The notes under the pieces: generated by a model | What the model saw: only the letters and a program-made list of their open reading frames with translations | Databases searched by the model: none | What the model was told of the DNA's origin: nothing | Shown: piece by piece, positions 58,328 through 64,000 of the stretch | Layout of the letters: each line of letters starts with the position of its first letter | How positions within the stretch are numbered: position 1 is the stretch's first letter | Position numbers and translations under genes: made by a program | Assembly (NCBI RefSeq): GCF_003838195.1 | Contig: NZ_RCBY01000007.1 | Location: forward strand, 1-64,000 | Reading direction: 5' to 3' | DNA from: Okeania hirsuta | GTDB taxonomy: Bacteria > Cyanobacteriota > Cyanobacteriia > Cyanobacteriales > Microcoleaceae | DNA length: 64,000 nucleotides

Positions 58328-59188
58328 TCAAACGTGAGGTACACGCAATACACGAAAACCAATAAGGTCAAGCGTGACACTGGGAAGATAGTAGCTGCGG
58401 TACGCAGAGCGACACCTCCTCGGAAGGTCGTACCAGGAGCCACCACGAAGGACTTTTGTAGTATTTTGATTACCTGATAGCCATGCACGACCATCATTGG
58501 GTGCGTCCTGATAATTATCCTGCCAATAATCTTCACACCATTCAAAAACATTGCCGTGCATATCGTATAAGCCAAAGAGATTAGCAACTTTGAAGTAACC
58601 CACTGGAGTGGTTTGTTCTCTATGTTCTCCCTTTGGACCTCTGCCATAGGAACCACTGTCAGTATTTTGATTAATCTCTCTATCTATTCCACAGTAGTTA
58701 GCTAAATTTGTAGTAATGGTTTCTCCAAAATGAAAAGGTGTAGTCGTTCTTGCACGACAAGCATATTCCCATTCTGCTTCACTGGGTAGGCGATATTCTC
58801 TCCCTGTGTTCTGGCTTAACCTAGCACAAAACTCTTTAGCGTCTAGCCATGAAACTTTCTCAACTGGGCGACTCCAACGCTTATAGTTTTCATAGTCATC
58901 TTTAAATCTTGAAGGGTCAGAATCAAGGTCACGTTCAATCTTTTCAGTAGTTTCAACAACCGTTTTCCACTGACCCTGAGTAATAGGATAACGTCCCATG
59001 TAAAATTCCGGCACTGTAACTTCATGTTGGGGGCTTTCCCTACTCCATCGCTCTAATTCATCTTCAGGGGAACCCATAAGGAACTTGCCTTCTGGAATCT
59101 TCACCATAGCCAGCTCAACATTATTGCCCAGGTCTTCGATATAGTATTCAGCCTGTTGCCTCTTCTTACGAATAGTTATCCTTACCAT
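58328..59188 (-). CDS. FGE/SUMF1-domain protein with putative DGR variable region
   Basis: 286 residues. After ~25 residues (VRITIRKKRQQAEYYIEDLGNN) comes a complete FGE-sulfatase (C-type-lectin-like) domain: MVKIPEGKFLMGSPEDE, HEVTVPEFYMGRYPITQGQW, RPVEKVSWLDAKEFCARLS, YRLPSEAEWEYACRA, LYDMHGNVFEWCEDYW and the tail RGGSWYDLPRRCRSAYRSYY ... IGFRVLRV. True FGE has two Cys in the tail; only one equivalent is present, so catalysis is doubtful and ligand binding is likelier. The tail aligns with 60497-63070 in a way that points to retroelement-driven diversification. No signal peptide. Confidence 0.87.
   Translation of the reverse strand: MVRITIRKKRQQAEYYIEDLGNNVELAMVKIPEGKFLMGSPEDELERWSRESPQHEVTVPEFYMGRYPITQGQWKTVVETTEKIERDLDSDPSRFKDDYENYKRWSRPVEKVSWLDAKEFCARLSQNTGREYRLPSEAEWEYACRARTTTPFHFGETITTNLANYCGIDREINQNTDSGSYGRGPKGEHREQTTPVGYFKVANLFGLYDMHGNVFEWCEDYWQDNYQDAPNDGRAWLSGNQNTTKVLRGGSWYDLPRRCRSAYRSYYLPSVTLDLIGFRVLRVPHV
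58364..58447 (-). other. Putative DGR variable region VR-A
   Basis: 84 nt (28 codons) from the Arg of RGGSW to the codon before IGFRV. Compared with VR-B (60527-60610), 32 positions differ; of 52 identical positions just 2 are A on the coding strand. The 23 bp that follow in the coding direction (58341-58363) are identical in both genes, as expected for an IMH-like anchor, while 57 bp on the other side differ at 6 positions. Confidence 0.75.
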
Positions 59189-59466
59189 TAATTTGAATTA
59201 TATCATGTCCAGTTGAATAATTATAATCAGGGCTAGTAGTATTGCTCTAGCCCTATCTATTTTAGAACCTATCCTACTATTGTTTGTTGAAACCCTTACA
59301 TTGAGCTAATCGAAAAACCGTGAAATCCTTTAACTATAATTACTCCCTAATCTTACTACTCCAATCCCCCCCTTTTTAAGGGCTTTTAAGTCCCCCCCTT
59401 TTTAAGGGGGGTTAGGGGGGATCTAAAAGCCAGGTAACTCAAACAAACCAACTACAAACACCTACC
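59189..59466. other. Gap with CCCCCCTTTTTAAGG repeats
   Basis: Contains an ATATCATGTCC half-end (59205-59215) and GGGGG/CCCCC inverted words around 59370-59420 that form a hairpin. No gene. Confidence 0.4.
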
Positions 59467-59850
59467 ATGCCAAAACTTAACGACTCCAACTTCCACCTCC
59501 CCTACAACCGCCAACTCGTCCCCATCGCCAAACAACTCCGTAAAAACCCCACTCCGGCAGAAAAAAAACTATGGCAAGATTTCCTCAGAACTTTTCCCCT
59601 GCGCGTGTTGAGACAGCGACCTATTAATAACTTTATTGTTGATTTCTATTGTGCTGCTCTTGGGTTAGTAATTGAAGTTGATGGGGATAGCCACTTTACG
59701 GAAGAGGGAAAAGCTTATGATGCTGAGAGGACTTCTGTTTTGGAGGGTTATGGGTTGCGGGTGGTTAGGTTTACTAATGTTGATGTTTTGCAAGAATTTG
59801 AGGGGGTTTGTTGGCAGTTGGAGGGTTTGATTGATGAGCTGAGAGATTGA
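59467..59850 (+). CDS. DUF559 (VSR-like) endonuclease-fold protein
   Basis: 127 residues. Features of DUF559: AKQLRKNPTPAEKKLWQDFLR, then RQRPINNFIVDFYCAALGLVIEVDGDSHF with the PD-(D/E)XK/VSR-like acidic pair (Asp in VDFY, Glu-x-Asp in IEVDG), and LEGYGLRVVRFTNVDVL. No signal peptide. Such genes are common, mobile and of uncertain role in cyanobacteria. It is the only plus-strand gene in this block and lies between the two FGE-domain genes. Confidence 0.85.
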   Translation: MPKLNDSNFHLPYNRQLVPIAKQLRKNPTPAEKKLWQDFLRTFPLRVLRQRPINNFIVDFYCAALGLVIEVDGDSHFTEEGKAYDAERTSVLEGYGLRVVRFTNVDVLQEFEGVCWQLEGLIDELRD

Positions 59851-59859
59851 TTCCTCATA

Positions 59860-60262
59860 ACACTCCTTGCGATCCCCCCTAACCCCCCTTGAAAAGGGGG
59901 GGACCGGAATGTGTCGGGATTTTGGTCAGGAGCAATAGTGCTAGCGCCGCTACAAGATCGCGCAGGGTTGCAGATATAACATCGCTCTTTTAATCAACAA
60001 CTGATAACTCTTAAGACAACTTACTCTTGTTCCCCCCTTTCTAAGGGAGACAACTTACTCTTGTCCCCCCCTTTTCAAGGGGGGAACCGGAATGCGTCCG
60101 GATTTTGGTCAGGAGCAGAACCCGCAGGGTTGCAGATATAGCATCACTCTTTTAATAGACAACTGATAACTGTTAAGGCAACTTACTTTTTTCCCCCTTT
60201 CTAAGGCGGATTTGGTATTACTCTTGTCCCCCCTTAGAAAGGGGGGTTAGGGGGGATCGACA
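59860..60262. repeat. Direct repeat of a ~170-bp unit with CCCCCCTTTT palindromes
   Basis: The unit at about 59893-60060 (GGACCGGAATG, GATTTTGGTCAGGAGCA, CGCAGGGTTGCAGATATA) recurs at about 60080-60200 with substitutions and a small deletion. Flanking GATCCCCCCTAACCCCCCTT and its inverse form hairpins. It separates the DUF559 gene from the SAV_2336-FGE gene; the interval to 60496 has no gene. Confidence 0.6.
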
Positions 60263-60496
60263 CAGGCTTTGAGAAACCCACAACAAATCCCAACTCAACC
60301 ACTCCCACTACTACCTCTCAATCGATCACTCCCCTACTTCAAATTTCCGATCAACAGCAGGGATTTTTTTCTGTTGACTTTACCTTGGGCTTCGATCCCC
60401 CCTAACCCTGAAAAGAGGGAGACCATAGTTTGGGAAAGAGCGATCGCTCTTTTCTCTGGCCAAAGACAGGACTCAAGAGGGTGAAAGAGGGGCTAT

Positions 60497-63070
60497 TCAA
60501 GAGACACGCAATACACGAAAACCAATATAGTAGCTTGAGACAGCGGGAGAATGGAAGTGGCGGGACGTAGAGCAACACCACAAAGGCTTGAAGCGCCAGC
60601 AGCCGCCACGAAGGAGTTTTGTAGTTCTTTGATTACCCGATCGCCATGCACTACCATCATTGGGTGCCCCCTTATAATTCTCATGCCAATCATCTTCGCA
60701 CCATTCATAAACATTACCGTGCATATCGTATAAGCCAAAAGCATTGGCCACTTCAAAACTACCTACAGGAGTTGTTTCTTGTCTATACTTACCTTTTGCC
60801 CCTTGACCATAACTGTAATTGCCGTCATAATTTGCTAAACCTGTAGTAATGGTTTCTCCAAAATGAAAAGGCGTAGTTGTTCCCCCACGACAAGCATATT
60901 CCCATTCAGCTTCACTGGGAAGCCGATAGTTTCTCCCCGTATATTTGGACAGTCTGGCACAAAATTCTACTGCATCGTACCAAGACACTGTTTCCACAGG
61001 TCGATTATTTCCTTTAAAATATGAGGGGTTAGAGTCAAGGTCACGTTCAATTTTCGGCACATTATTAACAATGGCTTTCCATTGAGCTTGAGTAATGGGA
61101 TAGCGACCCATGAGAAAAGCTGAAACATTCACTTCATGTTGAGGACTTGCAAATGTAGCGCGTCGGAATTCATTTGAACCCATGATAAACTTTCCTGCGG
61201 GAATTTCCACCAGTTCAAGTTTAATTCCATCGCCCAAGTTTTCAACAATACCAGTAACTCGTCGGCGTTGTTTTTTGATTACCCATCTATTTCCCAATAA
61301 TTTCAACCATCCTGAACGTCTTTTTTCCAACGTTGCCACATCAAACTCAAACGTTACAGTTTTCTCAACCTCAATCAAGGCAACGTCAAAGGTATCAATT
61401 TCAATTTGAGGTTCTGGTGTCACTTCTCCAGTTTCCCCCATTGTTGAACCTGAAACACCGGAAATATTCTGGGCAACTTCACGGGCAAATTCGGCATATT
61501 CTCCCCCTAGATTTTCCAATACTTCAACAGCAACTTGGGCAAAAGGTAAAACTTTCTCCCGGTCTTCCTCCTCATATTGAGGCAATAACGCCAACAACGC
61601 CCGAAAACTACGAATAGGTCGGTCAATTTTTTCAGCTATGTAACGAGAAATAGCATCCAGAACGGCTGTAGTTTCATTGCGTCCCATTGCCTGATTCAAC
61701 TCTTGCCGGACACCGGGAAAAAATTCATAGATTTGTTCTTGACCATTAGAGTCAGTTGCAGCAAGCAAACCTCCCATATAAACTTCTGCCACATGAACTG
61801 GGTTAGCTTCTGGTAATAGATTTTTGCGAATCAAGTTAACCACAGATAAATTTACGGGAGCTGCTGCCATCATTCCTGCCAGTCGTTGAGCAGTAATAGA
61901 AGTTGTTGCCAGAAATTGCCTCACCCTAGTTGTGGTTGAAAGTTCCGTTATAGATTCGGGTTGCTCAGGTTGATCGTAATATTGTTCCTCGACAAATTTT
62001 AAATCAAATAAAAATGTAGGTACTCGTGCATTACTTGCTCCCGACACTACCCGACACCAACTTTTCAACAGTTCATGTTCCGGCAGAATAACTGGTAAAA
62101 CCAAAGCATTTTTCCAGTCTATAGGTATCCAAGCGGGTAGATTTTCCAACATCAGACGGGGGTTAGCAACTCCTGGTGTAATAGTAGTACCAAATAATTT
62201 TCTTCCCGCTCCCAGTTGGGTACTATCCCAAAGATATTCGGGGAACAATTGTAGCACTGTAGTAGGGCTTTTCTCTGACCACACTTTTAACCATTTGTGA
62301 ATGGTGGCATTTTGCCAAACCGCAGAGGTACAGTCACTCACGAAAATAACTACCCCCCGTTGGTTAGGATGAATCAATTCACGGTGACTATGTTCACGTT
62401 GCCTGGGTTTTCCACTGCTATCTCGCCGGACTAATTTTAATTTGCTATTTGAACTGAGCAAACTCCAGACTCGCACATTTCTAAATGCTCCTTGAGTTTC
62501 AAAGATTTGTTGTAGCTCATTAACAGTCTCTCTCCAAATAAAAGCCGAACTAGACTCTTCTACCACCAATTCTAAATCAAGCCAGCGTTCAGGTTCTGGT
62601 TTAGTCACAGGCAACCACACATCCTGCTCGGCAATTAAATTCACGGTTGCTTCTTCATCTAGTGCTTTTCCTGTGATAGAGGGAACTTTCCGCATCAGAG
62701 GGCGCAGCGCACGGCCTAATTCCAGTACATTCAGGAGAGCTGCTGCTGCTGGAGCTTGAAAAGATAAACCTTTGACTGGAGGTTGTTCGGGAGTTTGAAA
62801 ACTTGATTCTTCAGTGATTACTGAAACAATGGGTTCTCTGTCAGTTACAGATTCTTGGGGTTCGCCTTCCTCAAATTTGATCGGCAGAAGTTGTTCGGGT
62901 TCTGGTTTTTGCTCCTGCTTTTGTTGAGTCTCTACCGTACCCATTTGTAAAGCTAACCAGATACTATCGGCAATATCTTCATTGCTGAGTTCCAGACGTT
63001 TTAACATTCCGGTTTGATCGAGTCGGTCTATCAAACGTTCAATGGTACGATGAAAACTAGAATCACTCAT
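60497..63070 (-). CDS. SAV_2336/vWA-like plus FGE-domain conflict-system protein
   Basis: 857 residues. A short N-terminal helical domain (about 1-45), an acidic linker, then a SAV_2336-type region (about 95-560) whose core LDLELVVEESSSAFIWRETV ... HPNQRGVVIFVSDCTSAVW resembles a vWA-like fold and is followed by a helical region (FLATTSITAQRLAGMMAAAPVNLSVV). An FGE/C-type-lectin domain (about 615-857) closes with RGGCWRFKPLWCCSTSRHFH ... IGFRVLRVS. It is preceded by a MoxR AAA+ gene with a 3-bp spacer (TAAGGGATG). This pairing is known from NTP-dependent conflict systems in multicellular bacteria. The C-terminal variable stretch is a candidate DGR target. Confidence 0.85.
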   Translation of the reverse strand: MSDSSFHRTIERLIDRLDQTGMLKRLELSNEDIADSIWLALQMGTVETQQKQEQKPEPEQLLPIKFEEGEPQESVTDREPIVSVITEESSFQTPEQPPVKGLSFQAPAAAALLNVLELGRALRPLMRKVPSITGKALDEEATVNLIAEQDVWLPVTKPEPERWLDLELVVEESSSAFIWRETVNELQQIFETQGAFRNVRVWSLLSSNSKLKLVRRDSSGKPRQREHSHRELIHPNQRGVVIFVSDCTSAVWQNATIHKWLKVWSEKSPTTVLQLFPEYLWDSTQLGAGRKLFGTTITPGVANPRLMLENLPAWIPIDWKNALVLPVILPEHELLKSWCRVVSGASNARVPTFLFDLKFVEEQYYDQPEQPESITELSTTTRVRQFLATTSITAQRLAGMMAAAPVNLSVVNLIRKNLLPEANPVHVAEVYMGGLLAATDSNGQEQIYEFFPGVRQELNQAMGRNETTAVLDAISRYIAEKIDRPIRSFRALLALLPQYEEEDREKVLPFAQVAVEVLENLGGEYAEFAREVAQNISGVSGSTMGETGEVTPEPQIEIDTFDVALIEVEKTVTFEFDVATLEKRRSGWLKLLGNRWVIKKQRRRVTGIVENLGDGIKLELVEIPAGKFIMGSNEFRRATFASPQHEVNVSAFLMGRYPITQAQWKAIVNNVPKIERDLDSNPSYFKGNNRPVETVSWYDAVEFCARLSKYTGRNYRLPSEAEWEYACRGGTTTPFHFGETITTGLANYDGNYSYGQGAKGKYRQETTPVGSFEVANAFGLYDMHGNVYEWCEDDWHENYKGAPNDGSAWRSGNQRTTKLLRGGCWRFKPLWCCSTSRHFHSPAVSSYYIGFRVLRVS
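60527..60610 (-). other. Putative DGR variable region VR-B
   Basis: The equivalent of VR-A in the SAV_2336-FGE gene. Codon pairs VR-A/VR-B include TAC/CGC, GAC/TTC, CTT/AAG, AGG/TTG, AGC/CAC and CTT/AGC: most fit a template AAC, AAG, AAT or similar. Unchanged codons (CGT, GGC, TGG, TGT, TCT, CGC, CCC, GTC) lack A. The 23-bp block 60504-60526 after it is identical to 58341-58363. Confidence 0.75.
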
Positions 63071-63073
63071 CCC

Positions 63074-64000
63074 TTAATCCTCATCGTCAACTCTTCCTAA
63101 ATCTTGGAAAAGTTGCTGCACTAATTTATCCTCTGTAGCAGGAATGCGACCCTCTGTTACCATGAAAATTGCATTGAGTAACTGGTCAGTTGCCAGGGTT
63201 CCCTCCTCTCGTCGGTCAATAAAATCTTCAATCAGCTTTTGGATTTTTTCCTGTTCAGCAGTATCATTATTAAAATGAGCAGTAACAATTTTGGTCAATT
63301 CCTCTTTTGTGGGAGATTTCATCCTTAAGCGCAAACACCGCCGTAAAAAAGGTGCAGGAAAATCTCTCTCTCCGTTACTGGTCATTACCACAAAAGGGAA
63401 AGCGGTGCAAGTTATCCGCCCATTCTCAACCTCCGCCTCCATCTCAGAGGCTGTCTTTTCCTCAGTTGCGTCAGTGTAAGCAGTACGCACCGTTACCTTG
63501 TCTACCTCTTTCTTAATTCTCACCAATTCCGGAATTTCAAAAGACCCTTCTTCTAGAATAGCCAGTAGGTTGTTGGGTAGGTCAATGTCGCTTTTATCAA
63601 TCTCATCTATCAGGAGAACGCGAGGATATTTTGAGGGCAGCAAACTTGTCCCTAAAGACCCAAGAGTTATATATTTTTCAATCTGTTGAATTTGTTCTCG
63701 ACGTTGCTCTGGGGAAAGAGTTTGATTATTTTGGTTTTCCTGTTGTTTAGCTTCCTGCAACCGACCGATAGCATCATAACTGTATAGTCCCTCTTTCAAG
63801 GTAGTGCGGGTAGTAATTGGCCAGTAAAGCACTTCTCCCAGTTTCAGTTGTCGAGCTACAGCATAAGCGAGGGAAGATTTACCCGTTCCTGGTTTTCCCG
63901 TGATTAGTAGCGGTCGCCTCAAGTATAATGCAGCGTTAATCATTTTTACCTCATCAGGACGCACCTGAAAAGTTTCACCCCGTCGTTTCAGGCGACTTTC
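63074..64000 (-). CDS. MoxR-family AAA+ ATPase (5' end outside window)
   Basis: The frame is open through the window edge (ESRLKRRGETFQVRPDEVKM ...), so the GTG at 63964 is not the start. Walker A GKPGTGKSS, Walker B VLLIDEIDKSD, sensor 1 VMTSNGERDF, arginine finger region APFLRRCLRLRM; a helical lid follows and the end is QDLGRVDDED. MoxR proteins act as ATP-driven chaperones or switches. Its stop is 3 bp before the ATG of the SAV_2336-FGE gene, so they are co-translated; the ATPase is likely the regulator of that effector or sensor. Confidence 0.88.
   Translation of the reverse strand, partial: ESRLKRRGETFQVRPDEVKMINAALYLRRPLLITGKPGTGKSSLAYAVARQLKLGEVLYWPITTRTTLKEGLYSYDAIGRLQEAKQQENQNNQTLSPEQRREQIQQIEKYITLGSLGTSLLPSKYPRVLLIDEIDKSDIDLPNNLLAILEEGSFEIPELVRIKKEVDKVTVRTAYTDATEEKTASEMEAEVENGRITCTAFPFVVMTSNGERDFPAPFLRRCLRLRMKSPTKEELTKIVTAHFNNDTAEQEKIQKLIEDFIDRREEGTLATDQLLNAIFMVTEGRIPATEDKLVQQLFQDLGRVDDED

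Follow-up and report, generated by a model that had tools for sequence, protein, structure and literature searches.

Two probably orphaned and frozen C-type lectin targets of a diversity-generating retroelement in a MoxR/VMAP-type conflict operon of Okeania hirsuta

The first 64,000 nucleotides of contig NZ_RCBY01000007.1 from Okeania hirsuta (NCBI RefSeq assembly GCF_003838195.1; positions 1 to 64,000 of the forward strand, here called the window) include two genes whose products end in a C-type lectin (CLec) domain of the FGE fold. We consider it likely that this pair consists of orphaned, probably frozen CLec targets of a diversity-generating retroelement (DGR) from a ternary conflict operon of the MoxR/VMAP type. 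DGRs act by adenine-specific mutagenic reverse transcription and home at an anchor. The two target genes, their variable regions (VRs) and their anchors are as follows.

58328–59188, minus strand: short target, 286 aa, CLec/FGE fold (PF03781, E 9.8e-55), with a model that resembles TvpA (2y3c)
60497–63070, minus strand: long target, 857 aa, with an N-terminal extension and a C-terminal CLec/FGE domain (PF03781, E 5.2e-54)
58364–58447, minus strand: VR1, residues 248–275 of the short target, from sequence comparison with VR2
60527–60610, minus strand: VR2, at the 3' end of the long target, from sequence comparison with VR1
58341–58363, minus strand: 3' anchor of VR1, identical to the VR2 anchor (0/23 differ)
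60504–60526, minus strand: 3' anchor of VR2 (0/23 differ from the VR1 anchor)

VR1 and VR2 differ at 32/84 nt, only 2 of their 52 identical sites are adenine (A), and their flanks differ at 0/23 positions on the 3' side and 6/57 on the 5' side. These counts, recomputed here, agree with those in the preliminary description of this DNA, and its assignment of an FGE domain to both genes is borne out by the PF03781 match in each. The base make-up of the 52 identical sites is A 2, C 21, G 15 and T 14. While A accounts for 31.9% of the window, its share at identical flank sites on the coding strand is 25.7% (19/74); relative to that flank share, two or fewer A in 52 sites has a binomial P of 3.5e-5, and Fisher's test of VR against flanks gives P 0.0012. 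The differences fall at codon positions 1, 2 and 3 in the ratio 15/12/5 (27/32 at the first two), compared with 2/2/2 in the 5' flank, and the identity of the two genes ends directly past the 23 nt 3' flank. The pair shows two features of DGR targets, a CLec/FGE fold with the VR near the C-terminus and a common anchor 3' of the VR. A pair of ordinary FGE paralogues from the same genome (on C84 and C19), used as a negative control, showed the reverse pattern, with 2/0/6 differences by codon position and A at 22/76 identical sites. The remaining FGE pairs of the genome (C401, C557, C24 and C89) were intermediate or had no codon bias. This genome also has another family of VR-like CLec ends, three of them in tandem at C401:31632-34712 and one at C557:34069-34350; no template for this family was found in the assembly.

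Transcription runs along the minus strand from an AAA ATPase gene through the long target and a 1.3 kb gap to the short target, and a VMAP gene lies further upstream.

63074–64000, minus strand: MoxR-like AAA ATPase, continuing beyond the window end (AAA_5 over the cut-off, bpMoxR under it)
contig 64260–66179, upstream and outside the window: trypsin-VMAP-M1-VMAP-C gene (Trypsin_2, VMAP-M1 and VMAP-C over the cut-off)

Relatives of this locus were collected by scanning genome contigs with the long target as query, and the best 80 of 414 loci were kept. Among the matches listed for the long target, the top one was in a metagenome-assembled genome (MAG) of Trichodesmium erythraeum (77%) and the second in Lyngbya aestuarii (68%). 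The T. erythraeum MAG has the same operon (trypsin-VMAP, AAA ATPase, long CLec target, short CLec target), and between the long and short targets it carries, in order, bAvd (PF22296), a DGR-type reverse transcriptase (RT) and an A-rich template. That template differs from its two VRs at 14 and 18 positions, all of them at template A (32/54 A sites), with 0/78 non-A sites changed in each VR (0/156). A wider control of 12 template-VR comparisons in eight loci gave 185/352 A sites changed against 1/551 others. These eight loci are among 12 with an RT; the MAG and L125 were compared apart, and L064 and L070, where no VR was extracted, have template-like repeats too. The claim that both window genes are targets of one DGR, present or past, is supported, as their orthologues flank the T. 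erythraeum cassette and the VRs there differ from the template at A only. Ancestry and signature together mark the window genes as DGR targets. In-frame stops interrupt each of the two DGR RTs in the T. erythraeum MAG, a single one at L162:1897-2955 and several at L163:2904-3896, and the stop in the cassette RT means that this RT may itself be dead. In congener G003, template-like repeats flank an Avd-RT pair on both sides (L161:6205 and L161:8487).

We regard it as very improbable that the VRs reflect only ordinary divergence, in which diversifying selection acted on two paralogous lectin-like genes and gene conversion on their 3' ends. The common anchor could arise by gene conversion, and in several pairs with no RT beside them (e.g. 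L058, L074 and L076) the differences extend to all codon positions, which allows for a share of ordinary divergence. However, the depletion of A at identical sites and the sharp borders speak against this explanation, as do the template-matched DGR targets among the orthologues and the reverse pattern in the ordinary FGE pair. Gene conversion alone was rejected in view of the A and codon-position pattern.

The whole assembly (8,786,841 bases in 716 contigs, with completeness given as 99.99%) was searched for the missing parts. No DGR-type RT was found in these 8.79 Mb. RVT_1 returned 11 matches (eight loci, one extra match inside one of these, plus C101 and C702), all of which were read at their sites and which, judging by their motifs, look like group II intron-type RTs, whole or fragmentary; those on C101 and C702 were read as fragments and rejected as DGR RTs. 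With the Trichodesmium RT as query the best E value in this genome was 4.4e-8, against 5.3e-130 in congener G003, and with BPP-1 Brt it was 1.2e-4. The best bAvd match in the assembly (E 0.011, 19 bits) was below the cut-off of 40. The preliminary description had placed an RT and a template elsewhere in the genome, but the assembly yielded intron-like RTs only, no bAvd above the cut-off and no template. Nor did an anchor-matching template next to a DGR RT turn up. When up to three mismatches were allowed, the 21 nt anchor core had just two matches in the genome, one in each target.

Neither an inferred template nor the Trichodesmium template, used as queries, found a template in the assembly. 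The inferred template gave 15 listed BLAST matches, including the two targets. One other, at C383:2388 (26 nt, E 0.0017), lies within a membrane-protein reading frame with no CLec motif and was taken as chance, and the remaining 12 had E values of 0.5 or worse. A degenerate template pattern with at most one mismatch was present in 7/7 examined genomes with a cyanobacterial-type DGR RT and in 1/9 without one, though the pattern is partly circular because it was shaped on templates already seen. The single exception is C623:29948 in this genome, which has one mismatch to the pattern but was rejected as it lies inside an FGE match. The preliminary description had named the lack of any DGR RT or A-rich template in the genome as a refutation; by that rule an active DGR fails for this assembly, while the DGR ancestry of the targets stands.

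The genome does contain several group II intron-like RTs, and one of these, or another RT not of the DGR type, might diversify the VRs in trans. Some relatives with no DGR-type RT do have VR pairs with only 0–2 third-position differences (L071, L080 and L113). However, the assembly holds no detectable template for such an enzyme either. Intron RTs are not known to have such a diversifying activity, and we give this explanation as little credence as ordinary divergence.

To gauge how long the pair has been cut off, equal-length VR pairs were compared, pairs within one locus not being independent. Pairs beside an RT (seven pairs, five loci) have 18–22 differences each, with 3/140 at third positions, and the templates of relatives have A at 0–2 third positions. 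In pairs with no RT beside them (24 pairs, 14 loci, the window excluded), third positions account for anything from 0/20 (L071) to 13/32 (L058). Over the same span the window pair has 30 differences, four of them at third positions (4/30 against 3/140, Fisher P 0.019). This excess suggests that, after the last homing, ordinary drift has probably contributed some of the differences, a dating that rests on few sites, while the identical anchor indicates that the last homing was not very long ago. The 3' ends also appear concerted. Over the 24–27 nt from the GFR codons on, the two targets within a genome agree at 22/27 positions here, 27/27 in Trichodesmium and 21/24 in Lyngbya, compared with 16–19 between genomes. 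In the 330 nt upstream, similarity is about equal in both comparisons: the two orthologue pairs with Trichodesmium are 81% and 88% identical between genomes, and the targets within a genome are 80% identical here and 85% there. Such concerted ends would be expected if each genome copied from a single template.

In T. erythraeum the cassette occupies the space between the targets, and the corresponding space in the window has other contents.

59189–60496, no strand: space between the targets, the position of bAvd, RT and template in T. erythraeum; no cassette traces here
59390–59904, no strand: unit with a DUF559 gene (59467–59850, plus strand; PF04480, E 3.3e-25) flanked by 34 nt inverted repeats that are 97% complementary

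The DUF559 unit stands among CCCCCCTT-AAGGGGGG palindromes, part of a gap that also contains other palindromic repeats, and may be a mobile unit that sits where the cassette is missing.

Several observations weigh against an orphaned and frozen pair that lost its cassette here. The gap shows no trace of Avd, RT or template, and in Lyngbya the targets lie approximately 0.24 kb apart without a cassette, in a genome where no RT of the cyanobacterial DGR type was found. A cassette at this place in the ancestor of this lineage is therefore not proven and, as there is no stub here, the case for loss in place comes from the relatives. At L125, a locus with an RT, 11/33 A sites but also 6/51 non-A sites differ between template and VR, so the A-only rule is not absolute. 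Compared with the first 60 nt of the Trichodesmium template, their own not having been found, the two window VRs differ at 21/32 A sites but also at 15/88 non-A sites, and they are one codon shorter; their true template must therefore differ from that of Trichodesmium. Finally, the assembly is a draft, which leaves room for a DGR that is still active, with its RT and template in DNA that was not assembled, on a plasmid or, if the population is mixed, in sibling cells. A part of PMC10907252 offers a precedent for a cassette in sibling cells, describing structural variants with intact RT and template repeat at disrupted Thiohalocapsa loci and inferring trans activity for others. The identical anchor of the two targets would also fit an active DGR. 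Against this stand the stated completeness of the assembly, in which RT, bAvd and template were not found, and third-position differences above those of pairs beside an RT, and we consider an active DGR unlikely.

Orphaning is common among the related loci. RT and bAvd stand beside the target in 12/80, although no call can be made for loci truncated by a contig end, and a truncated bAvd alone (20–57 aa matched) lies directly behind the target in 5/80. These five, with truncated bAvd frames behind a CLec target and no RT after them (L069:8676, L082:4308, L105:10976, L118:5292 and L120:11272), are decayed cassettes. RTs were surveyed in 42 genomes reached via 44 loci, many of them drafts or MAGs. 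A cyanobacterial-type DGR RT (61–87% identity) was present in 18/42, matches of only approximately 30% identity in 4/42 and none at E 1e-20 in 20/42, so that in 24/42 genomes with such loci no cyanobacterial DGR-type RT (at least 61% identity) was found. In a tree of 42 long targets (41/80 loci and the window), cassette state requires at least seven changes, against a mean of 7.5 with shuffled labels, and the tree gives no direction. Congener G001 has an isolated 72 nt fragment, 85% identical to the VR1 region and near a transposase-like frame (L170:1501-1572, equal to C501:28278-28349), which is a relic of a similar target.

For the orphaned and probably frozen pair in the window, the following course would account for the data. 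By mutagenic homing, a DGR in this lineage would have written a single A-rich template into the 3' ends of both genes, randomising the adenines, copying the rest and carrying the common 3' anchor along. We infer that its cassette once stood at this very place and was lost, rather than never having been present there. As RT, bAvd and template are gone from the assembly, both binding sites are most likely frozen and would be starting to drift. The target proteins presumably still act as sensors. Along the lines that part of Dore et al. proposes (PMC10907252), the CLec surface would bind a ligand and act via the ATPase on the trypsin-VMAP effector, with both sensors now fixed. More tentatively, cyanobacterial ternary conflict operons could use the DGR as a disposable tool, the sensor pair being rewritten and the cassette then deleted, often with a bAvd stub left behind, so that a selected receptor is fixed. 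If so, the age of each freeze would follow from how far paired VRs have diverged at third positions. The window offers a clean example from nature of DGR targets separated from their mutator, for which a relative with a syntenic cassette is available for comparison. Orphaned targets of this kind escape genome scans that are keyed on the RT.

Among known systems, the fold of the short target (model with mean pLDDT 78.4) is closest to TvpA of Treponema denticola (2y3c; Foldseek E 1.4e-15, TMq 0.70, rmsd 3.5), which had the highest TMq among the matches listed and which we take to be a DGR target; FGE enzymes and PvdO were also matched. TvpA shares the FGE-like CLec fold but comes from another organism, and no conflict operon was compared. 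The T. erythraeum MAG cassette (L051/L162) is alike in its orthologous operon and targets, with 79% over the N-terminal part of the long target, but differs in having bAvd, an RT (with its in-frame stop) and a template. According to part of PMC8867640, T. erythraeum IMS101 also has DGRs.

Cyanobacterial CLec DGRs, as covered in part of Vallota-Eastman et al. 2020 (PMC7517822), likewise have C-terminal CLec targets, several per genome. The same part describes a paralogue in Nostoc PCC 7120, all3226, that keeps a remnant of TR-VR homology and lacks a nearby RT, so an orphaned DGR target is already in print. Two DGRs lie elsewhere in the Nostoc genome, whereas the special point of the present case is that no DGR RT was found anywhere in the assembly. 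It is also suggested there that diversification parts are removed after a variant has been selected, and the present case makes this idea, that they are discarded once a good receptor is in place, testable.

The DGR-linked MoxR/VMAP systems treated in part of Dore et al. 2024 (PMC10907252) are the closest in organisation. In contrast to what is described there, the window operon lacks RT, accessory protein and template. It does combine, in one operon, a MoxR-like ATPase and a VMAP protein with an effector domain, as MoxR/VMAP ternary conflict systems do. A vWA-domain protein was not recognised, the N-terminal extension of the long target matching no Pfam family at E 0.01. In loci described in that part of the paper, a MoxR ATPase lies directly upstream of a plain-extension target, and a second CLec target, a short one, is also present. 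As they have this plain extension instead of vWA, the window operon is a variant and not the canonical system, sharing with them the MoxR-like ATPase, the plain-extension target, the short CLec target and trypsin-VMAP.

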